This document shows positions 18,616 to 30,578 of a stretch of DNA of 64,000 nucleotides, piece by piece. The DNA comes from an uncultured Verrucomicrobiales bacterium (GTDB lineage Bacteria; Verrucomicrobiota; Verrucomicrobiia; Verrucomicrobiales; Akkermansiaceae), in contig CALGJQ010000007.1 in assembly GCA_937928545.1 (NCBI GenBank), positions 62,001 to 126,000 on the forward strand, read 5' to 3'. Numbering within the stretch: the first letter of the stretch is position 1; each line of letters begins with the position of its first letter. Both the position numbers and the translations under genes were made by a program. The notes beneath the pieces are model-generated. The model ran no database searches. It was given only the letters and a program-made list of their open reading frames with translations, and was not told where the DNA came from.

Positions 18616-21600
18616 TCAACTCCCGTGATGCTGCTTGAAATTTTCAGCTTGCTCGAAGATCTCCTTATAAACCTCGTCGCGATCTACCGGAGGATACTTG
18701 TGTTTTGCGAGTAAGAGAATCAGCCCGACTTTGAGCTCGGCTTTGATGCTGTCCTTCTTGTCCCAGTCGGGATACTGGGCTTTGTCATCGACCACGGTTT
18801 TGACCTCTTTGGCGAGCATGAGGAGTTTGTCCTCGGGGTAGTCGAACTCGTATTTCTCAGCGAGGGTTTTGAGGATGTCGTAGAAGGCTTTTTCTTCGAG
18901 ATCGATGCCGAGGTCGCTGAATGAGTCGCGTTCTTTTTTGAGGGCTCCGATGAGGTCGAAGAATTCGTCAGTCAGTTTCGTGACGCCTTCGGTGGACCAT
19001 TGGTCGATCTCTTCGCGTTCGTTGTAGGTGTTGACGAGAGACTGGAATTTTTCGGTGAAGTCGAGGCTCTTGATCTTGTTGACCTTCTTGAAGTCCTCGA
19101 TCGCCTTCTTGAGCATCTGCTGGAGCAGCTTGATCTTGGTGTTGGGGAGCTTGATTTTGTCGATTTTATCAAGGTAGTCGTCGTCGAAGATGTCGATCTC
19201 GGTGGCTTCTTCGTCGCCGAGTTTGAAGATCTCTTCGACGCCGTCACTCTTTAGGGCTTCTGAGATCATGTCGCGGACCTTGGCGTTCATCTGGGCGCTG
19301 TCGGGGGCGTCGCCTTTGGTGAGCTTGAAGACGATGGATCTTACCGCGAGGTAGAAGTGGATGTGGTCGCGTTCGCTCTCGGTGATTTCTTCGCTGCCGC
19401 AGCAGATGTCGTAGGCGGCTTTGAGGCGCTTTACGAGGGACATGAAGTGAACTTCGATCTTCTCGGAACGCTGGGAAAACTCGGCGGCCTTGTTGAGACA
19501 TTCGAGTTGGGCCATCGGTTCGCCGCTGAAGTAGGGCTGCTTGTCGAATCGGTGGAAGAGCCGCGCAAGGAGATCGAGATGGTCCCGGACTACGGTGATC
19601 GATTGGGTGATCTCTTCGATGTTCGAGGCGTCGGACTTTGAATATTTGGCCAAGGCCTGATTCATCGCGGTCTTGATGCCGAAGTAATCGACAACGAGTC
19701 CTTTCTTCTTGTTCGCGAACTTTCGGTTCACGCGGGAGATTGTTTGGACGAGGTTGTGCTTCTGGAGCGGTTTATCGATATAGATCGTATCGAGGAAGGG
19801 GACATCGAATCCGGTGAGCCACATGTCCACCACGACCGCGATTTTGAAGTTCGATTTGCCGTTCTTAAACTGCTTGTCGGCTTCCTTGCGGTCGTCTTTG
19901 GTGCCGAGGAGGTCCCAGAGAACTTTGGGGTCATCTTTACCACGGGTCATGACCATCTTGAACCGGGGCATGGGCTTGATTTCCTTCTTCTCGCTTTCGG
20001 TAAGGATGGAGCCTTCGTCGCAGGCTTTGATCTCGGCCCAGTCGGGGCGGAGGGCGATGACTTGTTTGTAGAAGTCGTAGGCGATCTCGCGGCTGGTGCA
20101 GACGAACATCGCTTTGCCGTTCACGGTTGAGCCTTCGGTGACGCGGTTTTCGTAATGAGTGACGAAGTCGGCTGCCAGTGCTTTGAGTCGGTCGGGGTCG
20201 CCGAGGATGGACTTCATTTGAGCCATCGCCTTTTTACTCTCCTCGATCGAGTAGTCCGTAGCTCCCTGATCGGCGCAGCGGGCGTAGTAGTCTTCAATCT
20301 CCTGGAGCTTGGAATTTTCGAGGAGGATTTTGGCAGCGCGGCCTTCGTAGACGATGCGCACCGTGATCTCGTCCTTTACCGACTCGGTCATGGTGTAGGA
20401 ATCGATCACTTGGCCGAAGACATCGAGGGTGGCGTCGATAGGAGTTCCGGTGAAGCCGACGTAGGTGGCATTCGGGAGGGAGTCGTGGAGGTGCTTGGCG
20501 AAGCCGAAACTCTTCCTCACGCCCTCTTTCGTGGTCGTGATTTTTTGATCGAGGTTTGTCTGGCTGCGGTGGGCCTCGTCCGAGATGCAGATGACGTTGG
20601 TTCGGTCGGTGAGGAGGTCGGTGTCCTCATTGAACTTGTGAATGGTAGTGAGGAAGACGCCACCGCTGGCACGGCCTTTGAGTTTGTCGCGGAGGTCATC
20701 GCGGCTTTCGACACTCGCGACCTCGGCATCCCCGAGGTAGTTCTTACCATTGGTGAAGAGGCCGGAAAGCTGGCTGTCTAGGTCGGTGCGGTCGGTAATC
20801 AGGATGATGGTGGGGCTGGCGAGTTCCACGCTCTTCATGAGAAGGCGGGAGAGGAAGAGCATGGTGTAGCTCTTACCGCAGCCGGTCGCCCCGAAGTAGG
20901 TGCCGCCTTTGCCGTCGCCGTCTGGTCGCATGTGGGCGAGGATGTTTTTGTAGAGCTTGGTGGCGGCGTAGTATTGGGGATAGCGGCAGAGAATTTTCTC
21001 TTCTCTGCGGGAGGTGTCCGGGAGGTAGACGAAGTTGCGGATGATATCGCAGAGGCGCAGGGGATTGAAGAGTCCCTGAATCATGGTGTAGAGCGAGTTG
21101 ATTCCGTCTTTTTCGATCAGCTCGTTTCCGTCTGTTTTCCGCCACGCGTAGTAAAACTCGTAGGGGGCAAAAAAGGAGCCCGCTTTATTGTTCGCTCCAT
21201 CGCTGATCACGCAGAAGGCATTGTATTTGAAAAGCTCTGGGATGTCTCGTTTGTAGCGCTCAGTGAGTTGAACGTAAGCTTCGTGGATATTCACCTCTTC
21301 GCGGATCGCGCTCTTAAATTCAAAGACGACGAGCGGGAGGCCATTGATGTAGAGGATGCCATCCGGGATACGCTTTTCAGTTCCGATGATCTCCAGCTGA
21401 TTAACGATCTTGATGATGTTTCGGCCCTTGGGGTTAAAGATCGGGGTGTCTTCGGCGACGATATTAGGCACCTCGCCTGGCTTGGGTTTGTGAAACTCAG
21501 TGAGGCGCGAGTAGTCGATGAGTTGGATAAAGAGATCCTTCTGCGAGCGGTCCTCGCGCTTCAGGAGGAAGCCATCCGAAACCAGCTTCATGATCGCCTT

Positions 21601-21849
21601 ATTGCTCTCGTAGAGATCCGCTGAAGAATAGGCTTCGAGCTGCCGGATGACCGCGGTGATTTCCGCAGGTGTAATCTTATCGGTCTGATAGCGATGCGCG
21701 AGGAAGGCACGGAGATCTTCCTGAATCAGAACCTCATTTGGCTGCCGTTCAATCGCTTCGCCTAGCACATGCGGATAGCCTTCGGAACTCAGAAGCTCAA
21801 TAATCGCTAGCTCTAATTGAGCTTCTGAGAATTTTGAATGCTGAGTCAT
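18616..21849 (-). CDS. hsdR: Type I restriction enzyme, R subunit
   Basis: A 1077-residue HsdR, the motor and nuclease subunit of a type I restriction-modification complex. The N-terminal nuclease has LYINGLPLVVFEFKSAIREEVN (the E-x-K part of PD-(D/E)xK). The helicase has Walker A GATGCGKSYTMLF at about 320, the DEAH box ISDEAHRSQ, YVGFTGTPI, and motif VI-like QTISRVNRKF. The coiled C-terminus binds the methylase core. Its first residues MTQHS are encoded by a repeat arm (21829-21861) in place of the MKFTEAQ-like start seen in two fragments upstream. It is separated from hsdM/hsdS by 4.5 kb of inserted modules. Confidence 0.95.
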   Translation of the reverse strand: MTQHSKFSEAQLELAIIELLSSEGYPHVLGEAIERQPNEVLIQEDLRAFLAHRYQTDKITPAEITAVIRQLEAYSSADLYESNKAIMKLVSDGFLLKREDRSQKDLFIQLIDYSRLTEFHKPKPGEVPNIVAEDTPIFNPKGRNIIKIVNQLEIIGTEKRIPDGILYINGLPLVVFEFKSAIREEVNIHEAYVQLTERYKRDIPELFKYNAFCVISDGANNKAGSFFAPYEFYYAWRKTDGNELIEKDGINSLYTMIQGLFNPLRLCDIIRNFVYLPDTSRREEKILCRYPQYYAATKLYKNILAHMRPDGDGKGGTYFGATGCGKSYTMLFLSRLLMKSVELASPTIILITDRTDLDSQLSGLFTNGKNYLGDAEVASVESRDDLRDKLKGRASGGVFLTTIHKFNEDTDLLTDRTNVICISDEAHRSQTNLDQKITTTKEGVRKSFGFAKHLHDSLPNATYVGFTGTPIDATLDVFGQVIDSYTMTESVKDEITVRIVYEGRAAKILLENSKLQEIEDYYARCADQGATDYSIEESKKAMAQMKSILGDPDRLKALAADFVTHYENRVTEGSTVNGKAMFVCTSREIAYDFYKQVIALRPDWAEIKACDEGSILTESEKKEIKPMPRFKMVMTRGKDDPKVLWDLLGTKDDRKEADKQFKNGKSNFKIAVVVDMWLTGFDVPFLDTIYIDKPLQKHNLVQTISRVNRKFANKKKGLVVDYFGIKTAMNQALAKYSKSDASNIEEITQSITVVRDHLDLLARLFHRFDKQPYFSGEPMAQLECLNKAAEFSQRSEKIEVHFMSLVKRLKAAYDICCGSEEITESERDHIHFYLAVRSIVFKLTKGDAPDSAQMNAKVRDMISEALKSDGVEEIFKLGDEEATEIDIFDDDYLDKIDKIKLPNTKIKLLQQMLKKAIEDFKKVNKIKSLDFTEKFQSLVNTYNEREEIDQWSTEGVTKLTDEFFDLIGALKKERDSFSDLGIDLEEKAFYDILKTLAEKYEFDYPEDKLLMLAKEVKTVVDDKAQYPDWDKKDSIKAELKVGLILLLAKHKYPPVDRDEVYKEIFEQAENFKQHHGS

Positions 21850-21861
21850 GAGTTATGAATT
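21829..21861 (+). repeat. Island repeat copy R1, right arm of the four-helix-bundle element
   Basis: A 33-bp arm of the GAATGATGAATTNTGAGTGATG... family, inverted relative to R2. On the minus strand it provides the TAA stop of the four-helix-bundle gene and, three bases later, the ATG and first codons of hsdR. Confidence 0.75.
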
Positions 21862-22221
21862 TTTTCCTAGCTGCGAGGTCTTTACGATCGAGGTCAAGAT
21901 ACGGACGAGTTCATCAGCTTCTTTGGTGATGTGGGAGAGTTTGTCGGCTTCAACGATATCAGCTGCTTTGAGGAGTCGCAGCCAATAAAGCGTTTCCCTT
22001 GCTTCCTTTCGGGAAATTGACATCTTGGCGATGAAATCAGCCTTACTTTGTCCTGCTTGGGCTTCCTCGATGTTTGCCCCAATCGAGGTTCCCGATCTCA
22101 GTAATTGATTGGCTAGAGTTCGCGAAACTCGGTCCTGCGTTTCCATAAATCGACAAAGCCGAACCACCCGCACCGCAAACTCAAAGCTCCGCCCAATAAT
22201 ATTAAATTCAGCACTCATCAT
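21853..22221 (-). CDS. Four-helix-bundle protein (23S rRNA intervening-sequence protein family)
   Basis: A 122-residue helical protein. The family pattern is clear: FEFAVRVVRLCRFMETQDRVSRTLANQLLRSGTSIGANIEEAQAGQSKADFIAKMSISRKEARETLYWLRLL, with the conserved SGTSIGANIEEA. Members occur in 23S rRNA intervening sequences and as single genes in many genomes. The related Avd protein helps diversity-generating retroelements. The molecular job of the stand-alone form is not known. Its start (MMSAEF) lies in repeat arm R2 and its stop in R1, so the gene and two inverted arms form one compact unit of about 420 bp placed at the hsdR start. Confidence 0.9.
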   Translation of the reverse strand: MMSAEFNIIGRSFEFAVRVVRLCRFMETQDRVSRTLANQLLRSGTSIGANIEEAQAGQSKADFIAKMSISRKEARETLYWLRLLKAADIVEADKLSHITKEADELVRILTSIVKTSQLGKNS

Positions 22222-22251
22222 TCAAAATTTATCATTCGCCCCGTCGGGGCG
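22205..22251 (-). repeat. Island repeat copy R2, hairpin head plus left arm
   Basis: On the minus strand a hairpin CGCCCC-GAC-GGGGCG (22237-22251) is followed by a 33-bp arm ending ATGATGAGTGCTGAATT. The arm contains the start codon of the four-helix-bundle gene. It is inverted relative to R1. Confidence 0.75.
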
Positions 22252-22271
22252 TGGGCTTCGGTGAATTTCAT
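22218..22271 (-). pseudogene. hsdR 5'-end fragment interrupted by repeat R2
   Basis: The frame reads MKFTEAH and then runs into repeat R2 and stops after 17 codons. Its first 20 bases match the start of the longer hsdR fragment at 24173 at 19 of 20 positions (ATGAAATTYACCGAAGCCCA). It therefore looks like the severed start of hsdR. Its ATG overlaps the TGA of the AbiEii gene. Confidence 0.6.
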
Positions 22272-23266
22272 GGCGTATTGATCTCTGTTTCTAATGCGGT
22301 GAGTGAAGCGATGATCTCTTCAAAAGAGGGGCGAGGCCCAAAGATCATCTCTTGCATCGCGGCGTAGTCTTTTTCCATGGCTTTGAGGATATGGTTTGGC
22401 GGGATGAGTTTTAGCGAACCTCTCACGGCTGAATCATAGTTCGCCCAAGCGCGAGGGTAGAATTTCTTCTTAAAGAGGACGACATCGGCTAGTAACTGGA
22501 TCTTTTCTAAGACCGCCGTTTTTAGTGCTTCATCGGCGGCCATGAGGCAGAGGTCATAATAGTGCCTCGAATATCGCTCGGGAGTGACTGAGTCTGCGGG
22601 GCGATGCGCTTCATGATGTAGGATGGTGGCTTTTTCCCAAAAGGTGCGCTCCGCATCGATGGCGCGCACCTTGCATTTTGGTTCATCAAAGAGCTGTGGG
22701 AAGTCTTCAGCGGCGTAGGGTGTCACGCTATGTTCAGAGTGCGGCAACCATGAGGCCAGTGGTCCGATTTCTAACTGGATGTAGGGCAGGATACCGCTTG
22801 GGTTTTCGGTCTTGGGGTATTTGACCCGGACAACGTGACCTTGGTCTTTCTCGTCCGCTTTGATCTCCAGCTCACAGTGGGAGCCGAGTGCTTCGTGGAG
22901 CCATGGCATCATCGTTTCTGCAATGTAAGTGATGGCCTGCTCGTTGAGCGATTCGTTGATCTTACTTTGTTGCCTCTTGGAGCGCTCGGCCATCGGGTCT
23001 TGATCTTGATTCACCTCTCTCCAATCCAGAACGAGGTCCACGTCTTCTGAAAAGCGACTGATGAGTCCATAGGCTTTCGAGAGGCTGGTGCCACCTTTGA
23101 AGATGAGCTGCTTGGAGAGTTCGGGATGTTCGAAGAGTTGCTTTAGCGTCCAGCAGACCCAGAAGTCTTTTTCAATGATCGCAATCGAGCCGATGCCGCG
23201 TTGTTGGGCCGTGAGCGTGAAGAGTTCGTTTCGCTCCTTCTCGGGCAATGTTGCGACACCGTTCAT
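22268..23266 (-). CDS. AbiEii-type nucleotidyltransferase toxin
   Basis: A 332-residue protein of the AbiEii/AbiGii family. The nucleotidyltransferase core is visible as QLIFKGGTSLSKAYGLISRFSEDVDLVLDW, with the G-G-T-S and D-x-D catalytic pattern. FWEKATILHHEAHR and RYSRHYYDLCLM downstream are also typical. In characterised AbiE systems the toxin adds nucleotides to tRNA acceptor stems and causes growth arrest during phage infection. It overlaps the antitoxin gene by 4 bases (ATGA). The module sits between two fragments of the hsdR start, which suggests it was inserted into the restriction locus. Confidence 0.9.
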   Translation of the reverse strand: MNGVATLPEKERNELFTLTAQQRGIGSIAIIEKDFWVCWTLKQLFEHPELSKQLIFKGGTSLSKAYGLISRFSEDVDLVLDWREVNQDQDPMAERSKRQQSKINESLNEQAITYIAETMMPWLHEALGSHCELEIKADEKDQGHVVRVKYPKTENPSGILPYIQLEIGPLASWLPHSEHSVTPYAAEDFPQLFDEPKCKVRAIDAERTFWEKATILHHEAHRPADSVTPERYSRHYYDLCLMAADEALKTAVLEKIQLLADVVLFKKKFYPRAWANYDSAVRGSLKLIPPNHILKAMEKDYAAMQEMIFGPRPSFEEIIASLTALETEINTP

Positions 23267-23874
23267 GAATCAGAGCGCTTTGAAATGTTGCGGATCAGGT
23301 CACTGACCCAAGCTGGAGCGGTTTTGGTGTCTCGGAGAATCTTTTTCCAGATGCTTGGCGTCCAGGTTCCTGTAAGTTTTTGGAGGACTTTTTCATCAAT
23401 CCGTTCTTGCCCTAAAGCCTTCAGGGCTTGCACCACGAGTTCACTTTCCTTGTGCTTGAAGACCGATTCTTTGAGCGATCTTTTCTTGAAGACGAGCTGC
23501 TGCTTGCCGATCTCATACGTTTTGCTTGGGCCATCGGAAAGGTAGACGCTCTGAGCGGGAACTTGGGTCGAGAGTCCCAAGAGGTTGAGCGCGGTATTTT
23601 CCGAGGGCTGGATCCGCCAACCGGATCTGCGGGCCAAGGCGCGTGCCAGTTGATCCAGATCAGGCCCCATCTCGGTAGTGAGAAGCTTGCTGATCCGAGG
23701 GTAGTCATAGATCCCTCGTAAGACCCGACGGATGGTTCCTTTTGCTGCCAATTCAGAGAGCGCTTTTCGGATGTCGGCATCATTCCCCAAATCTAAAAAA
23801 TCAATCTTGGAAAACGCCCAACCCCTCTGGTTACCGTAAATCCTTGCAGATGATTTGTCTTCAATGGATTGCAT
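23263..23874 (-). CDS. AbiEi-like antitoxin/transcriptional regulator (DUF6088 type)
   Basis: A 203-residue protein with an N-terminal winged-helix segment (GWAFSKIDFLDLGNDADIRKALSELAAKGTIRRVLRGIYDYPR) followed by the AbiEi C-terminal region (IQPSENTALNLLGLSTQVPAQSVYLSDGPSKTYEIG). AbiEi antitoxins bind their own promoter and counteract AbiEii. A 9-bp inverted repeat 18-53 bases upstream of its ATG is a good operator candidate. It is first in the two-gene unit. Confidence 0.88.
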   Translation of the reverse strand: MQSIEDKSSARIYGNQRGWAFSKIDFLDLGNDADIRKALSELAAKGTIRRVLRGIYDYPRISKLLTTEMGPDLDQLARALARRSGWRIQPSENTALNLLGLSTQVPAQSVYLSDGPSKTYEIGKQQLVFKKRSLKESVFKHKESELVVQALKALGQERIDEKVLQKLTGTWTPSIWKKILRDTKTAPAWVSDLIRNISKRSDS

Positions 23875-23891
23875 GCCTATATCTTATTGTT

Positions 23892-23927
23892 TTTTTTCAC
23901 AAGTTGAAGGGTCTTTTTGTGAAAAAA
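23892..23927. promoter_or_regulatory. Inverted repeat, probable AbiEi operator
   Basis: TTTTTTCAC at 23892-23900 and GTGAAAAAA at 23919-23927 are perfect inverted repeats spaced 18 bases apart, directly upstream of the antitoxin start. AbiEi-type antitoxins bind inverted repeats in their promoters, so autoregulation here is likely. Confidence 0.5.
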
Positions 23928-23964
23928 TTCAGGAGAAATAGGAGCCGCTTGACAGCTGTTGTCC

Positions 23965-24005
23965 AGTGCATCACCCTGCGGGCTCTTCCCGCAGGGTGAT
24001 GCACT
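23965..24005. repeat. 18-bp perfect hairpin between the AbiE module and the hsdR fragment
   Basis: An 18-base arm beginning AGTGCATCACCCTGCGGG is perfectly complementary across a CTCTT loop. No T-run follows on either strand. It lies in the gap at the module boundary and may be a terminator-like structure or the end of the inserted module. Confidence 0.6.
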
Positions 24006-24053
24006 CGTAAATGCAGGATTTTCGTCCTTTAGAATGTTTAAATTCATCGGATT

Positions 24054-24173
24054 TTAATTGACGAGCAGCTCTTGCAGTTGGCGCTCAATCGCCTCGCCCA
24101 ACACGTGCGGGTAGCCCTCGACTCCGAGGAGTTCGATGATGGCTGATTCGAGTTGGGCTTCGGTAAATTTCAT
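24054..24173 (-). pseudogene. Truncated second copy of the hsdR N-terminus
   Basis: A 39-codon frame, MKFTEAQLESAIIELLGVEG...GYPHVLGEAIERQ, that matches the intact HsdR start (KFSEAQLELAIIELLSSEG...YPHVLGEAIERQ) at about 29 of 37 positions, then stops at TAA. It lies 6 bases after the RloC-like gene, where hsdR would be expected. It is a remnant of an hsdR gene whose body is now 2.2 kb away, or of a different hsdR allele. Confidence 0.85.
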
Positions 24174-24179
24174 GTGGAT

Positions 24180-26420
24180 CTAGCGGTTCGCTACATGTTC
24201 AACTTGGCCCTCAAACTTGTTGTCGATGAACTGAATTACAGCCTCGCAGCCACGCTGAATAATTTCCGGCGTGAACGGCTTATCAGTCCGAAGCGCACCG
24301 TGAGATCCATCGTGCATTAATGAATAGACGAATTCGTTGCCTTTTAGCTCTGCTATTTCATTGAAGTAGTCCTCTAGACCTGCCCTTGGCGCATCAAAGC
24401 GGCAAATGGTTTCAAGCACATGACGGATGGAGTTTGAGGTGGTGTGTGTGGCTTGCGCATTCTGCCGGGCAACTGCGTAGATATCCTTTAGATGGGACTC
24501 GTATGGCATAATTAAGTGTTCATTCAACTTTTCGAGTCTTCCTGATGAAAGAACCAAGCGTTGACTCACAATTTTATTACGGCACAGAATACTCATGAAC
24601 TCGATGTTGTGCGTTAGTACAATGAAACGGGCATTTCCTTGAAGATCGAAATAATCACCAATATTTCTAATCACTTGAGCGACCGCGTAGACATAATGAA
24701 AGTCCAAGCTTGAGATGGGATCATCGATAATAAAAAAGAGACGCTTGTAGTCGTCATCTGTCGTCAGCAAAACATGGGTTTCCGCTAGATAATGACAAAA
24801 TGACACGATGCTTTTTTCGCCGTCGCTCAGAACCTTTGCGATTTTTTTCCCCAACGACTTGCCCTGGAAGGTTATAGAATATTTCTCGTCATCGAAGGAA
24901 TATTTTCCAGCAAAGAATAGGTCGAGAAATTGAATAAGAGATTCAGCTACCTTCTGCTTCTTTTCTATTCGAACCTGTGCCTCCTTTTCTCGAATGCTTC
25001 GCTCTAGAGCTTGAGTGCATTCTTCCAATTTGGAAACATCTTCGAGCTTTCCCGAGAGTGCTGACTTAGTTTCAATGAAAAGCGCACGGCAGAGCCGTCT
25101 GTCTAGCTCTCGCTTTTCATGCTGAACGTTGTTCTTCGTAGAATTTAAGAGATCGATTCTACTTTGATTCTTGGCTATGGCCTTAGATAAGTCGGAAGAA
25201 TACTCGTCAACTTGCTTCGACGCGCTCTCAATTTTAAAACCTACTCGATCAATATTTTGAGCCTTATTTTCTAAGGCTGTGCAAATCTCTTTAATCGCCT
25301 CAGAAAGCGATTCCATAGGTTGATAGGCATTACAGGTTTCCTCTTTTAGCGATGGGATGAACTTCTTCTGCTCGTTGAAGCCCTGAGCGGTATTCAAAGC
25401 GTCAGCAAGCGACTTCTCTACAGTCCGCAGGTCTTGCTTGAGGGTTCTCACCAAACTTTCGCAGCGTTTTGCAACCTTTGCCTCTTCATCATCAAGATAG
25501 CGGTTGTAGCGACTGATTAGCTGGGCCGCTTCTTCTGTATATGTCTGGCCGCAGAAGGGGCATTCCTCACCATTGCTAGCCTTCAACCCTTCTTCCACCA
25601 GCACCTGCTTACTTTTGACTTCCGTTACGAAGTCTTCCGCCAAGCTACTTTTCGAATATGAAGTCTCTAGGAGGAGTGAAATTTCCTCAAAATCAGAAAT
25701 ACGAGACGGTTCAATAAGCGGAGACAAGTCGGGCAAGTCGTCTGGAAGCGCTTTTAGATCGTTGTGTAGAACTTTGAGATCTGCGAACGTTTGGGCTTCC
25801 TGAACCCCGGTGTTGCTCCCAATATTTTCATAGGTGAAAAAAGTGTAATCTCCTAGGTTCTTGCGAATGGAAAGGGCATCAAGTTTGCTTTTCTCCTTTT
25901 GGATCGCATTCTTCAGATCCGTTGTCAGAGCCTCTCGCTTGCTCTCCAGATCTGCCAATTCCTTCCGCTCCTTAGATAAGTCAATATTACCTTTGCCAAG
26001 GATGTATCCCTCAACCGATCCATCAGCGGAATACTCTCGCTCCTCAATGTTTTCCCGGACGTAGTCGCTGTTAAATGCATGGAATAGGTAGTCAGTGGAA
26101 TTTGTGATCGAGGCATTCGGATCGTCCCGCTTTATCTTAATACCTAAACTTCGTGTCCGGCCGTTTTCGCTTGGATTTTTTAGGCTAAAACTGAAATCAC
26201 CTTGTGCGGCATCAATGGTGAGCAGATCATTAATTTTCTCTAGTTCCTGATCGGGTGTTCCTGCGATTCGAAACATCCGACTGAGAAAAGTTTTCCCACT
26301 ACCGTTGTTCGCAAAAATTCCGATTTTGCAGCTGCCAATCTTCCCATCGAACGAGAAAGTCGTAAGAGGCCCGATGTTTGATGCTGCGAGCTTGAAATCT
26401 AGTTTCTTGCTATCGCTCAT
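24180..26420 (-). CDS. RloC/PrrC-like ATPase, candidate anticodon nuclease
   Basis: A 746-residue AAA_13-type ABC ATPase. Walker A is FANNGSGKT (36-44). Two coiled-coil arms meet at a zinc-hook motif CPFCGQ (287-292). The ABC signature LSDGEKS (531-537), Walker B LFFIIDDPISSLD and the H-loop LTHN follow. The C-terminal domain has R666 and E670 (SIRHVLE) and H703/H707 (MHDGSHG), close to the spacing of the Arg320-Glu324-His356 triad of the PrrC tRNA anticodon nuclease. Its ATG overlaps the hsdS stop (ATGA). PrrC is held inactive by its type I partner and freed by phage anti-restriction. Nuclease activity here is inferred. Confidence 0.72.
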   Translation of the reverse strand: MSDSKKLDFKLAASNIGPLTTFSFDGKIGSCKIGIFANNGSGKTFLSRMFRIAGTPDQELEKINDLLTIDAAQGDFSFSLKNPSENGRTRSLGIKIKRDDPNASITNSTDYLFHAFNSDYVRENIEEREYSADGSVEGYILGKGNIDLSKERKELADLESKREALTTDLKNAIQKEKSKLDALSIRKNLGDYTFFTYENIGSNTGVQEAQTFADLKVLHNDLKALPDDLPDLSPLIEPSRISDFEEISLLLETSYSKSSLAEDFVTEVKSKQVLVEEGLKASNGEECPFCGQTYTEEAAQLISRYNRYLDDEEAKVAKRCESLVRTLKQDLRTVEKSLADALNTAQGFNEQKKFIPSLKEETCNAYQPMESLSEAIKEICTALENKAQNIDRVGFKIESASKQVDEYSSDLSKAIAKNQSRIDLLNSTKNNVQHEKRELDRRLCRALFIETKSALSGKLEDVSKLEECTQALERSIREKEAQVRIEKKQKVAESLIQFLDLFFAGKYSFDDEKYSITFQGKSLGKKIAKVLSDGEKSIVSFCHYLAETHVLLTTDDDYKRLFFIIDDPISSLDFHYVYAVAQVIRNIGDYFDLQGNARFIVLTHNIEFMSILCRNKIVSQRLVLSSGRLEKLNEHLIMPYESHLKDIYAVARQNAQATHTTSNSIRHVLETICRFDAPRAGLEDYFNEIAELKGNEFVYSLMHDGSHGALRTDKPFTPEIIQRGCEAVIQFIDNKFEGQVEHVANR

Positions 26421-27775
26421 GCCATTGCCTCCTCGGTGAGTTGTTTCGCTTTGGCGATGCGGAGTTCTCCAGAGATGAGTTTCGGGAGAAGGGTGTCGCG
26501 GAGTTTGGTGAGTGTGTCCGTTGCTCTTTGGTGCTGACCGATTTTTTCAATGAGCGGGTAAATCTTCAGGTCAAACAGCTCCATGAGCTCTTGCGGGAAA
26601 GTTACGGTCTCTAGGTTCCCGACGACCTCGGGTTTGATGGCAGGGTAGGCACCTCCATCTGCAAGGTGGGCAAAATGATCGATGACGTCGTCTTGTGTTA
26701 GGCACAGGTAAACGTAGGAGCGGCATTCTTTCTTTTTAGGGCGCAACACGGCAAAGCCAGTGCTTCCGGTTAGACCGTCTTCGTGGATGTATGCGAATGA
26801 TCGATTCCCAGGTCGAACCGTTCCGATGATGGTGTCATCGACCTTTAATACTCTTCTCGCACGACTAGGGGCTTCTGAGTAGTCGTATGGGAACACTTCG
26901 TTGATTCGTCCATTCTTGGTGTTGGCGAGATCGACGTAGTTTGCGTGGTCAGGATGCGTTTTGTTGCTCCATGACTCAGAGTTTAAGTTGGCAAGATCGG
27001 TGATTTTTGCTGTCTTCCAGCCCTCCGGGATCCAGCCCATGGATTCGGTTTCTTGGAAGGCGGCGGGGAAGAGGGAATGATGAGTTCTGAGTGATGACTT
27101 ATGAATTTCAGCACTCAGTATTCTTAATTCAGCCCTCGCCTGAAACTCAGGCGGAATGGGATTGCCGGCGGCGAGAGCATTGTCGATCACTGGGTCAAAG
27201 TCCACAAACCAGCTTTTGAAGAGCGCCTGCGCCATCCCTTCCAGCGTCGCATTCATCCGCCGATTCAACTCAATCTTGTCATCCAAGGTGCCCAAGATGT
27301 GAGCGATCGCTTTTTGCTTGGGGAGGGGCGGGAGTGGGATGGGTAGTTCGGCAACGGCCTTGCCGGTCAAGTGCTGGATTGTTGTTCCTGTAAAATAGGG
27401 CTCAAGCAATTCAAACTTGCCCGCATAACAGAACCAATAATGCAGGAAGGTGCTATTGAGTTCAGGATGTGGTCGGATTCGGTGAAGTGCTTTTTGAATC
27501 TTCATGTTTGGAACTTCATCTTTCCAAAGTGCGCACCTCCCAGGCTCTCCTCCTTCGCAGACCACTAAATCGCCAAAGCTCAATCCATAGCGATCATGCT
27601 CGTGATCCTCGAATTTCATTTCTGCGAGATCGTCGAGATCAAAGCCCCCCCATCGAACCTGCTTATTTCCCAAGTATGGGTGAAGGGTTCCTCGGTTCTT
27701 GTTTTTATCCAACATCTTGCCAAGGGAGGCGTCGACGTGATCACCTAGGCGCACTGTCTTCCACTCACTTCCCAT
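26417..27775 (-). CDS. hsdS: Type I restriction enzyme, specificity (S) subunit
   Basis: A 452-residue HsdS that selects the DNA target. The first recognition domain (WKTVRLGDHVDASLGKM ...) leads into the central conserved helix IPLPPLPKQKAIAHILGTLDDKIELNRRMNATLEGMAQALFKSWFVDFDPV. A linker follows, then a second recognition domain starting MGWIPEGWKTAKITDLANL, and the distal helix. The linker at about residues 216-234 is encoded by repeat copy R3 (27075-27130), inserted in frame. It overlaps the RloC-like gene by 4 bases. The DUF1016 gene separates it from hsdM. Confidence 0.94.
   Translation of the reverse strand: MGSEWKTVRLGDHVDASLGKMLDKNKNRGTLHPYLGNKQVRWGGFDLDDLAEMKFEDHEHDRYGLSFGDLVVCEGGEPGRCALWKDEVPNMKIQKALHRIRPHPELNSTFLHYWFCYAGKFELLEPYFTGTTIQHLTGKAVAELPIPLPPLPKQKAIAHILGTLDDKIELNRRMNATLEGMAQALFKSWFVDFDPVIDNALAAGNPIPPEFQARAELRILSAEIHKSSLRTHHSLFPAAFQETESMGWIPEGWKTAKITDLANLNSESWSNKTHPDHANYVDLANTKNGRINEVFPYDYSEAPSRARRVLKVDDTIIGTVRPGNRSFAYIHEDGLTGSTGFAVLRPKKKECRSYVYLCLTQDDVIDHFAHLADGGAYPAIKPEVVGNLETVTFPQELMELFDLKIYPLIEKIGQHQRATDTLTKLRDTLLPKLISGELRIAKAKQLTEEAMA
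27075..27130 (+). repeat. Island repeat copy R3, palindromic, inside hsdS
   Basis: A 56-bp copy with a left arm (GAATGATGAGTTCTGAGTGA...) directly followed by a shortened inverted right arm (TCAGCACTCAGTATTCTTAATTC). It contains no stop in the hsdS frame and is translated as part of the inter-domain linker. Confidence 0.7.
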
Positions 27776-27793
27776 ACCCCAAGCCCTCCTTTA

Positions 27794-27836
27794 CGCCTAC
27801 GGCGAGTGATGAATTTTGAGTGATGAATGCTGAATT
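27794..27836 (+). repeat. Island repeat copy R4, between hsdS and the DUF1016 gene
   Basis: A hairpin CGCC-TAC-GGCG (27794-27804) followed by the arm AGTGATGAATTTTGAGTGAT...GCTGAATT. It is in the same orientation as R5, and the two bracket the DUF1016 gene. Confidence 0.75.
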
Positions 27837-27843
27837 CCGGAGA

Positions 27844-28893
27844 TTATTTTTCATCGTTGGCGTCTTGTTGGGGCTTTTCGTTTGAGAAAAGGCGTCGTTC
27901 GCGTTGAAGTTCGGCTTTGAGGGTTTCTTCGCTGGGGAGAATGGTGCGGTATTTTGAGGCGAAGAGTTGCTCGTTTTCTTTTAAGACGGAGTATTGCACG
28001 ATGGTCTCGTCTTTGTCGGCGCAGAGGATGATGCCGATGGTGGGGTTATCGTCTTCGCCGCGTTTGAGGTCGTCGAACATGCGGACATACATGTCCATTT
28101 GACCGATGTCCTGATGGGCGAGCTTTGTCGTTTTGAGGTCAAGAATGACAAAGCACTTTAAGAGGTAGTTGTAAAAGACGAGGTCGAGGTAGAAGTGGCT
28201 GGTCTCGGTGCTGAGGCGCATTTGGCGAGCGACGAAGGAGAAGCCGCCGCCTAGCTCGAGGAGAAACTTTTGGAGGTCGTTGATGAGAGCTGTTTCTAGC
28301 TCTTTCTCCAGAAGGCTGGGATCTTCGCTCAGTCCGAGAAATTCTAGGACGTAGGGATCTTTGAGCTGAGTGAGTATTTGCTCGCGTGGGCTAGGAGATG
28401 CCGGGTTCTCTGATTGGGTCGAAAGGAGTCTCTCAAAAGTCTGGGTGTTGATCTGCCTTTCGAGCACTCGGGTGCTCCAGTTTTGATCGGCTGAAGTGGT
28501 GAGGTAGTAGGCTCTGGCTTCTGGATCATCGACTCGCATGATGAGGCGGTGATGGGTCCAACTCAAAAGGCTACGCAGTGCGTAGCTTTTTCGCCCTGCT
28601 GGATAAGTGAGGTAGAATTGGCGGAAGTTCTTGAGGTTCGCCAAGGAAAAGCCTTTTCCGAATTCCTGAGAGAGTGATTTGGACAATTCCTTCAGGAGAC
28701 CTTTTCCATAGGCGGCTTGGGCAGAGCCTCCTTGCTCTTCTTCTACGATCCGTTGGCCAATGGTCCAATAGGCTTCGACCATCAGCGAATTGACAGACTG
28801 AGCTGCGTTGTGACGCGCCTGCTGGAGGATGTCGCGGATCTCGATGAAGAAATCCTTCGAGTGACTTGAAGAAAGGTCGTTAATTTCTGCCAT
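27844..28893 (-). CDS. DUF1016 (YhcG-like) PD-(D/E)XK nuclease family protein
   Basis: A 349-residue protein. The N-terminal DUF1016 domain is seen in NAAQSVNSLMVEAYWTIGQRIVEEEQGG and GKGFSLANLKNFRQFYLTYP. The C-terminal nuclease domain has VLEFLGLSE, SFVARQMRLSTETSHFYLDLVFYNYLLKCFVILDLKTTKLAHQDIGQMDMYV (the D ... D-x-K pattern) and ADKDETIVQYSVL. Such genes often sit inside type I restriction loci, and some relatives have been linked to recombination-promoting nucleases. The role here is unknown. It is bracketed by two same-orientation copies (R4, R5) of the island repeat, suggesting it entered the operon as a cassette. Confidence 0.85.
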   Translation of the reverse strand: MAEINDLSSSHSKDFFIEIRDILQQARHNAAQSVNSLMVEAYWTIGQRIVEEEQGGSAQAAYGKGLLKELSKSLSQEFGKGFSLANLKNFRQFYLTYPAGRKSYALRSLLSWTHHRLIMRVDDPEARAYYLTTSADQNWSTRVLERQINTQTFERLLSTQSENPASPSPREQILTQLKDPYVLEFLGLSEDPSLLEKELETALINDLQKFLLELGGGFSFVARQMRLSTETSHFYLDLVFYNYLLKCFVILDLKTTKLAHQDIGQMDMYVRMFDDLKRGEDDNPTIGIILCADKDETIVQYSVLKENEQLFASKYRTILPSEETLKAELQRERRLFSNEKPQQDANDEK

Positions 28894-28926
28894 AGCCGAG
28901 GGATTTGAGGTTTTCGGTGATGGTGG

Positions 28927-28967
28927 CGCCTGCGGCGAATGATGAATTATGAGTGATGAATGTTGAA

Positions 28968-28970
<3 letters not shown>
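28927..28970 (+). repeat. Island repeat copy R5, at the hsdM stop
   Basis: A hairpin CGCC-TGC-GGCG (28927-28937) followed by the arm AATGATGAATTATGAGTGAT...GTTGAATTA. On the minus strand its edge supplies the TAA stop of hsdM. Confidence 0.75.

Positions 28971-30578
<1,608 letters not shown>

Follow-up and report, generated by a model that had tools for sequence, protein, structure and literature searches.

Why should a small gene lie between two inverted arrays of a 7-nucleotide word, in the middle of a type I restriction operon? The question is raised by a stretch of 64,000 nucleotides (here called the window) from an uncultured Verrucomicrobiales bacterium (NCBI GenBank assembly GCA_937928545.1, contig CALGJQ010000007.1, positions 62,001 to 126,000 of the forward strand). 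A first-pass annotation of the window had proposed that the gene and its arms move together as a small mobile unit, and that related copies nearby, which lack the gene, are its non-autonomous derivatives.

The gene and its arms in the window

The gene (21853-22221, reverse strand) belongs to the IVP family (PF05635, S23/four-helix bundle) and has 122 codons, just as had been annotated. Its Pfam score of 84.6 bits lies well above the family cut-off of 33.8; the match covers residues 6-110 of the protein and positions 3-105 of the 106 in the profile, and PF05635 is the only Pfam family in the protein. The structural model (pLDDT 90.6) has four helices, in the antiparallel arrangement of 2rld and 2gsc; 2rld is the best PDB match, with a TM score of 0.81-0.85 by query length. 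Avd, the accessory protein of diversity-generating retroelements (4dwl), has the same kind of four-helix fold, at a greater distance (TM 0.67-0.70 by query length, Foldseek E 0.08-0.3, identity 12-14%). The entries 2rld, 2gsc and 4dwl each hold five chains, and it is from these chain counts alone that a pentamer is read. The ratio dN/dS is 0.03-0.06 among the window gene and its relatives L036 and L037 (0.03-0.04 for the window gene versus either relative), with dS saturated, and 0.05 for L318 and L321; it is higher in L323/L307 (0.23) and in little-diverged pairs, where changes are few (0.40 and 0.53). This looks like purifying selection in the diverged pairs, and is less clear in the others.

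The two arms were found by reading the sequence, by an inverted-repeat search and by a pattern count. Arm R1 (21829-21861, forward strand) and arm R2 (22205-22237, reverse strand; to 22251 with its hairpin) are both arrays of the 7-nucleotide unit GARTNNT, in inverted orientation to each other. They do enclose the gene, but the clean 33-bp pair of the first-pass annotation is an imperfect one: the best ungapped core is 25 nucleotides long and 84% identical (21830-21854 and 22205-22229, 350 nucleotides apart). Read directly from the sequence, R2 contains the ATG-ATG start of the gene and R1 its TAA, and the GC-rich hairpin that had been noted at the outer end of R2 is real (22237-22251, the first stem of the predicted fold). 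The whole element is thus about 420 bp long (423 bp), a single gene between two arrays of a word.

The element is placed between two genes of the restriction operon, both identified by ORF and Pfam match and both on the reverse strand: hsdR, the restriction subunit (18616-21849), and an AbiEii-type gene (22268-23266) on the opposite side. The first codons of hsdR are made from arm R1, which contains the hsdR start codon (the ORF begins at 21849) alongside the stop codon of the IVP gene. Of 80 relatives of the window protein, 15 have an hsdR match on their contig piece. As several close relatives share this siting in a restriction operon, the window copy has probably been resident there, and carried along with the operon, for a long time.

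In the predicted RNA fold of the element, R1 and R2 pair with each other, so that complementary terminal repeats enclose the S23p ORF; the complete element gives a z score of only -0.69, with 23 of 100 shuffles equally stable. There was no Rfam match across 18-31 kb of the window, and the element lies outside any 23S rRNA helix; a search of the draft genome with RF02541 found no 23S rRNA. Profile scans of seven proteins of the island found no reverse transcriptase, and the sole PF00078 match listed for this genome is on another contig (C14).

Inverted arms and words beside other IVP genes

A sample of 184 loci yielded 196 distinct IVP ORFs, of which 11 were dropped for short flanks and 185 were scored for inverted arms. 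The median score was 20, versus 12 for 302 control genes from the same loci (p 1.6e-48). A score of at least 18 was reached by 128 of the 185 IVP ORFs and by 11 of the 302 control genes; for arm pairs drawn at random across loci the count was 46 of 547, and for arms compared in direct orientation 26 of 185. The sample leans to the window subfamily, because 80 of the 184 loci were picked as relatives of the window protein. By sample group, the counts at this score were 59/82 (group A, the window subfamily), 25/32, 21/35 and 23/29, the last also being the figure for the phylum sample, which is free of that lean. It had been predicted that the arms would repeatedly accompany IVP genes, and that the proposal would fail if genes of this subfamily usually lacked them; most sampled loci, and 59 of the 82 in the subfamily, do carry arms. 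On plasmids, 16 of 25 matching records were taken, and one of these, near-identical to another, was left unscored; all 15 loci scored have inverted arms (scores 18-44, 14 cyanobacterial and one from Bacteroidota, a set with no control genes).

The repeat unit of seven is also general. The autocorrelation of the 80-nucleotide flanks peaks at lags 7 and 14, where control genes are flat, and at lag 7 is 0.402 and 0.387 on the two sides, versus 0.262 and 0.265 beside control genes. Under a strict cut-off, 108 of the 185 loci pass, with a best period of 7 in 96, 8 in nine, 6 in two and 11 in one, and 77 have no array; among 299 controls the best period was 7 in 20, 8 in three and 12 in four. A period-7 array is absent in 88 of the 185 loci and lies on both sides in only 37. 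The arrays most often have four to five copies (four units being commonest, median 35 nucleotides), adjoin or overlap the ends of the gene, and consist of C-poor repeats directed inward from both sides. GC hairpins occur in 43 of 370 IVP flanks and 44 of 442 control windows; the hairpin head is therefore rejected as a general part of the element, there being no enrichment.

The genome of the window itself has five PF05635 matches. Apart from the window gene, three have inverted flanks, each pair of a different sequence: 49 nucleotides at 80% identity (L002), 21 nucleotides at 81%, GA-rich (L003), and 27 nucleotides at 74% (L004). By eye, the L004 arms have a period of 8; this locus lies outside the nine with period 8 under the strict cut-off. 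The fifth gene, L006, has no inverted flanks. Genes of its type, a conserved paralogue, never reach a score of 18 (0 of 7; lag 7 = 0.235); L006 and L150-L155 are an arrayless paralogue kept in the genus, probably inherited vertically and serving a role for the host. PF05635 was found above cut-off in 92 of the 144 genomes of the phylum sample. A weak screen with nine short 23S rRNA words found one of them in a single locus (L104) among the 185.

The word itself varies from locus to locus but is common to both arms of one locus, and it follows the protein. Across genomes, the 5-mer similarity of arms rises with protein identity (Spearman 0.275; the highest of 300 permutations was 0.074), whereas flanks 270-470 bp away give only 0.073. 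The order of units is hardly common to the two arms: the average was 20.2 versus 19.8, with none of the 26 testable loci at p ≤ 0.05 (Wilcoxon p 0.03). The two arms, then, draw on one stock of words without duplicating each other exactly. Exact inverted copies have little support in this test of 26 loci, although several cyanobacterial plasmid loci have perfect arms.

Several comparisons bear on how the words change or are kept. L308 and L309 differ from L312 by one unit, exactly and on both arms; L008 and L012, which occupy one site in one genus and encode proteins 62% identical, have different words, again on both arms. These look like changes made in concert at the two ends. Conversely, the related elements L318 and L321 have four-copy TAATTCG arms (with an extra TTTGGAA row in the left arm of L318), and these arms have been kept although the dS of the gene is 2.57.

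Insertion sites and arrays without the gene

If the gene and its arrays are a unit, there should be relatives with the same neighbours and no insert. Such relatives exist. Between nuoI and nuoJ, G000 and G018 share one IVP insert and G040 and G043 have another, the proteins of the two being 28-29% identical; the insert is absent in 20 of the 23 relatives' loci listed, nine of which have 3-12 bp between the aligned blocks. The independent inserts here are counted as at least two, since L008 and L012 are 62% identical and from one genus. At the L002 site, 18 of the 19 relatives' loci listed divide into one that is filled, six with 8-12 bp, three with 26-42 bp and eight in which unrelated-looking sequence fills 87-235 bp. 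Among these eight, inspection by eye shows both arms and fragments of the gene in L276, and in L277 a gene-free palindrome of a different word. A search at the L003 site returned many weak paralogous matches.

Plasmids add further cases. In Nostoc (C052), the element replaces 188 bp that are still present on a plasmid of the same strain, 94.9% identical. In Aulosira plasmids (91.5% identical), it occupies a gene junction, where it takes the place of 25 bp; in Calothrix, the junction that follows in that operon, 10-11 bp wide in relatives, holds another IVP gene. In three Nostoc plasmids, the element replaces part of a methyltransferase gene (328-336 bp are gone in L309, the one measured). The TAATTCG pair mentioned above lies at different sites in Nostoc and Dolichospermum. 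The sequence comparisons thus show, at several sites, the gene and arrays as a single insert that lies at a gene junction or interrupts a gene; at these other sites the first proposal, of gene and arms as one unit, is supported. No target-site duplication was seen at the compared inserts (nuoI-nuoJ, the L002 site and the plasmids), where the closest insert-free relatives are 91-95% identical; instead, on the plasmids about 10-330 bp of target are missing. A classical insertion sequence or MITE with target duplication is therefore rejected. Among 95 same-genome protein pairs that were binned, none was 70-95% identical (pairs above 95% fell outside the bins), so that no recent multiplication is seen.

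The neighbours of these inserts are mixed. Counting one nearest neighbour per locus (76, from 80 loci), the 25 commonest of 119 families include HSDR_N 12 times, N6_Mtase three times and Methylase_S three times; PADLOC agrees, with 12 REase_I. Restriction-type neighbours thus make up 18 of 76 and MoeA 10 of 76 among those commonest families, and an association with defence only is not general. Some plasmid settings are worth recording. An arrayed IVP gene lies between cas2 and cas1, in reversed direction, in plasmids of Anabaena cylindrica PCC 7122 and Nostoc TCL26-01 (L307 and L323). In two Planktothrix plasmids (L305 and L306), the element lies between drmD (a helicase) and a PglX-type gene, a DISARM/BREX context by annotation. 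Nostoc plasmids (L320 and L322) have xisH/xisI or xisI genes next to IVP genes whose arrays are of CAAGTCG or GAAGTCG.

The arrays also occur without the gene. A pattern of three GARTNNT units plus GA, with at most two mismatches, has 21 matches in the window, where shuffles lead one to expect 0.09 and none of 100 shuffles reaches 21; none falls outside 21829-29277, a span within the restriction operon. They include two palindromes of GARTNNT heptads with no gene between them, one in frame within hsdS (27068-27137) and the other in frame within hsdM (29199-29280), and two solitary heptad arrays on the forward strand, each with a GC hairpin head, one between hsdS and a DUF1016 gene (27794-27836) and the other between the DUF1016 gene and hsdM (28927-28969). 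The two palindromes add peptide stretches to HsdS and HsdM; at the site of its palindrome, HsdM is about 25 residues longer than 3khk.

Across the whole draft genome, the same pattern with at most one mismatch has 52 matches, which form 24 clusters when joined at gaps of up to 100 bp (a reversed control pattern has 10 matches). Two of these clusters form the arms of the window gene, and at none of the remaining 22 is there an IVP gene. Gene-free arrays and palindromes thus outnumber IVP genes, and the expectation that the arm consensus would mostly accompany an IVP gene failed: that arms would mostly stand alone had been named as a finding against the proposal, and taken literally it is what was found. 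The dispersal would fit cargo-free copies derived from the element, though it is no proof of such descent. Many of the solitary arrays in this genome (L245-L258) are of the GAGTGGT or GAATGGT type; in the draft assembly, with its five IVP genes, this word was not seen in the arms of any of them.

In the phylum sample, 28 of 100 IVP-positive genomes have three pattern matches or more, and so do 3 of 44 IVP-negative genomes (Fisher p 0.004); for one match or more the counts are 52 of 100 and 12 of 44 (p 0.007), genome size and relatedness being uncontrolled in both tests. In G078 and G198, the reversed control pattern is itself frequent, and other heptad words may be numerous there. A Dolichospermum plasmid (pAfl69), of which 50 kb were scanned, resembles the window in the local clustering of its arrays: 10 of the 12 period-7 arrays in these 50 kb lie within 27.2-33.7 kb, the IVP gene being at 29.1 kb, and seven of these ten are inside neighbouring genes (helicase two, hypothetical two, methyltransferase three). 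In this region (L334, 27263-33654), mostly one word recurs in the helicase, hypothetical and DNA methyltransferase genes around the IVP gene.

How the element might work, and what else it might be

Known systems offer points of comparison. In REP/REPIN-RAYT systems, a single gene is flanked by inverted short repeats that are also dispersed without the gene, and RAYT is a Y1 (IS200-like) transposase. The element described here is alike in its single gene between inverted short repeats, which are also scattered elsewhere without it. It differs in that its protein is a four-helix protein with PF05635 only, no Y1 transposase domain being found in the window element by Pfam, and in that its arms are tandem arrays of words.

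Another is the intervening sequence of 23S rRNA. That of Coxiella, as described in PMC4990558, which also cites an older idea that such sequences are mobile, is 428 nucleotides long, carries an ORF of the same family and has a 28-bp terminal stem. Elements of this kind with an S23p/IVP ORF, in Coxiella and Leptospira, share with the present one the ORF family, the length (428 nucleotides against 423 bp), the terminal inverted repeats and a patchy distribution. In contrast to them, the element here lies in a protein-coding operon and not in rRNA, its arms are arrays of a 7-nucleotide word that varies between loci, and solitary arrays and palindromes occur. Insertions in both 16S and 23S rRNA of CPR bacteria contain IVP ORFs, according to PMC11270868, and IVP is named in a figure legend of PMC10910872. 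The best reading is that the element is an extra-ribosomal form of the 23S rRNA intervening-sequence element.

With a confidence slightly above even, the locus is explained as a compact mobile element, in which one gene lies between word arrays, a ring-forming protein would bind the ends and host enzymes would do the moving. Binding of the word arrays by the IVP protein is probable; a binding role is favoured because Pfam finds no other domain in this four-helix protein. The protein would assemble into a five-fold ring of the kind read for its solved relatives and for Avd, and the ring would bind an array with one word per subunit, from which it would follow that each subfamily has a word of its own. 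That a ring takes five words is speculation, the commonest array length being four units. Complexes of ring and array at the two ends might then mark the element for insertion, the cutting and copying being left to host or unlinked enzymes. Solitary arrays and palindromes would be by-products or deletion derivatives, and the element would live off the transcription of the operon it has invaded, like the intervening sequences of 23S rRNA. Against reading the locus as an element of this kind stand the 77 of 185 loci with no strict array, the 22 of 24 own-genome clusters with no gene, and the pattern matches in 12 of 44 IVP-less genomes, together with the missing target duplication, the lack of visible recent multiplication and a unit order that the two arms hardly have in common.

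The strongest rival, though rather unlikely, acts at the level of RNA: the arms would pair in the operon transcript, RNase III would cut the stem and the IVP message would be excised with hardly any harm to the host operon, so that the arms would be kept complementary for pairing and not for protein binding. The likeness to the Coxiella sequence in ORF family, length and terminal repeats (PMC4990558) speaks for this, as do the pairing of the arms in the predicted fold of the window and the finding that arms pair better with their own partners than with arms from other loci (median -39.2 versus -29.4 kcal/mol, p 7.5e-9). The complete window element, however, is no more stable than its shuffles, unit order is hardly common to both arms, and pairing of a stem explains neither a unit of seven nucleotides nor solitary single arrays. 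IVP genes are in sense to both neighbours in 107 of 143 cases and antisense to both in 10, a count that rests on crude ORF calls (L012, counted as antisense, reads sense at nuoI-nuoJ). This bias does not separate the DNA from the RNA reading, because ordinary triplets of neighbouring genes are biased no less, 15 to 1 (n = 22), which weakens sense orientation as a special mark of dependence on RNA; moreover, antisense inserts do occur, for example between cas2 and cas1 and at L324.

It is improbable that the gene serves the host as an accessory or regulator (of restriction operons, for example), with the arrays as operators or translational control sites and with movement only by homologous transfer of whole operons. 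The restriction-type neighbours counted above, the low dN/dS of diverged pairs and the gathering of arrays of the resident word near the gene, within its operon, would all suit such a role. It is hard to reconcile with inserts in a housekeeping operon (nuoI-nuoJ) whose relatives have nuo genes free of the insert, with inserts beside moeA, or with those inside interrupted genes.

Less probable still is that the arrays are ordinary repeats grown by slippage, into which IVP genes insert preferentially. Most own-genome arrays of the window type are indeed gene-free, the gene-free palindrome of another word at the L002 site would fit, and in many bacteria heptamer repeats are frequent (PMC4692102 and PMC4679880). 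But the gene-free relatives at nuoI-nuoJ (nine) and at the L002 site (six) leave no room for an array, the arms match in inverted and not in direct orientation, and the words track the protein.

Least probable, and very much so, is a retro-element in which the IVP protein, like Avd, works with a trans-acting reverse transcriptase that writes the arrays: the Avd-like fold, the resemblance of PF05635 to Avd pointed out in PMC10053308 and the C-poor, inward-directed repeats are in its favour. It gains a little from the more frequent occurrence of reverse transcriptases in IVP genomes rich in arrays (15 of 28, versus 32 of 116 others; Fisher p 0.013, genome size uncontrolled). Yet 13 of these 28 IVP-positive genomes with at least three array matches, in drafts at least 90% complete, have no PF00078 match, which weakens a reverse transcriptase as a required partner. 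Diversity-generating retroelements differ from the window element, whose scanned island proteins include no reverse transcriptase and whose protein has a low identity to Avd.

To return to the compact mobile element, its arrays have counterparts in the literature. Heptameric repeats are known as GGGAATC in Xanthomonas, GGGGA(C/T)T in Nostoc and TAACTGA in Beggiatoaceae and cyanobacteria (PMC4692102 and PMC4679880). Like the arrays described here, they are tandem arrays of a 7-nucleotide unit, with 2 to 26 units, mostly four; a Xanthomonas genome has 70-75 convergent (inverted) pairs of them (PMC4692102). In PMC4679880 it is speculated that the mobile element might be a protein which binds the repeats. 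The terms "intervening", "four helix" and "S23" are absent from the main texts of PMC4692102 and PMC4679880, and no paper tying heptamer repeats to IVP genes was found in the literature searched. The link between heptameric repeats and PF05635 proteins is what is added here.

A wider claim is put forward tentatively, at rather less than even confidence: that there is a new class of mobile elements which crosses phyla, consisting of a gene for a ring-forming four-helix protein, with no transposase, and of ends that are word arrays, co-evolving with the protein and rewritten in concert, of which 23S rRNA intervening sequences and many heptamer repeats would be special cases or footprints. PF05635 proteins are widespread in the samples searched yet unexplained, and for the heptamer repeats of Xanthomonas, cyanobacteria and Beggiatoaceae no cause is agreed. 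Should the arrays prove to be ends and footprints of IVP elements, these two puzzles become one testable question, that of whether each IVP protein binds its own word. The intervening sequences of rRNA would then be one branch of a general element that invades operons, and this would be an element whose ends change in sequence and yet stay matched to each other.
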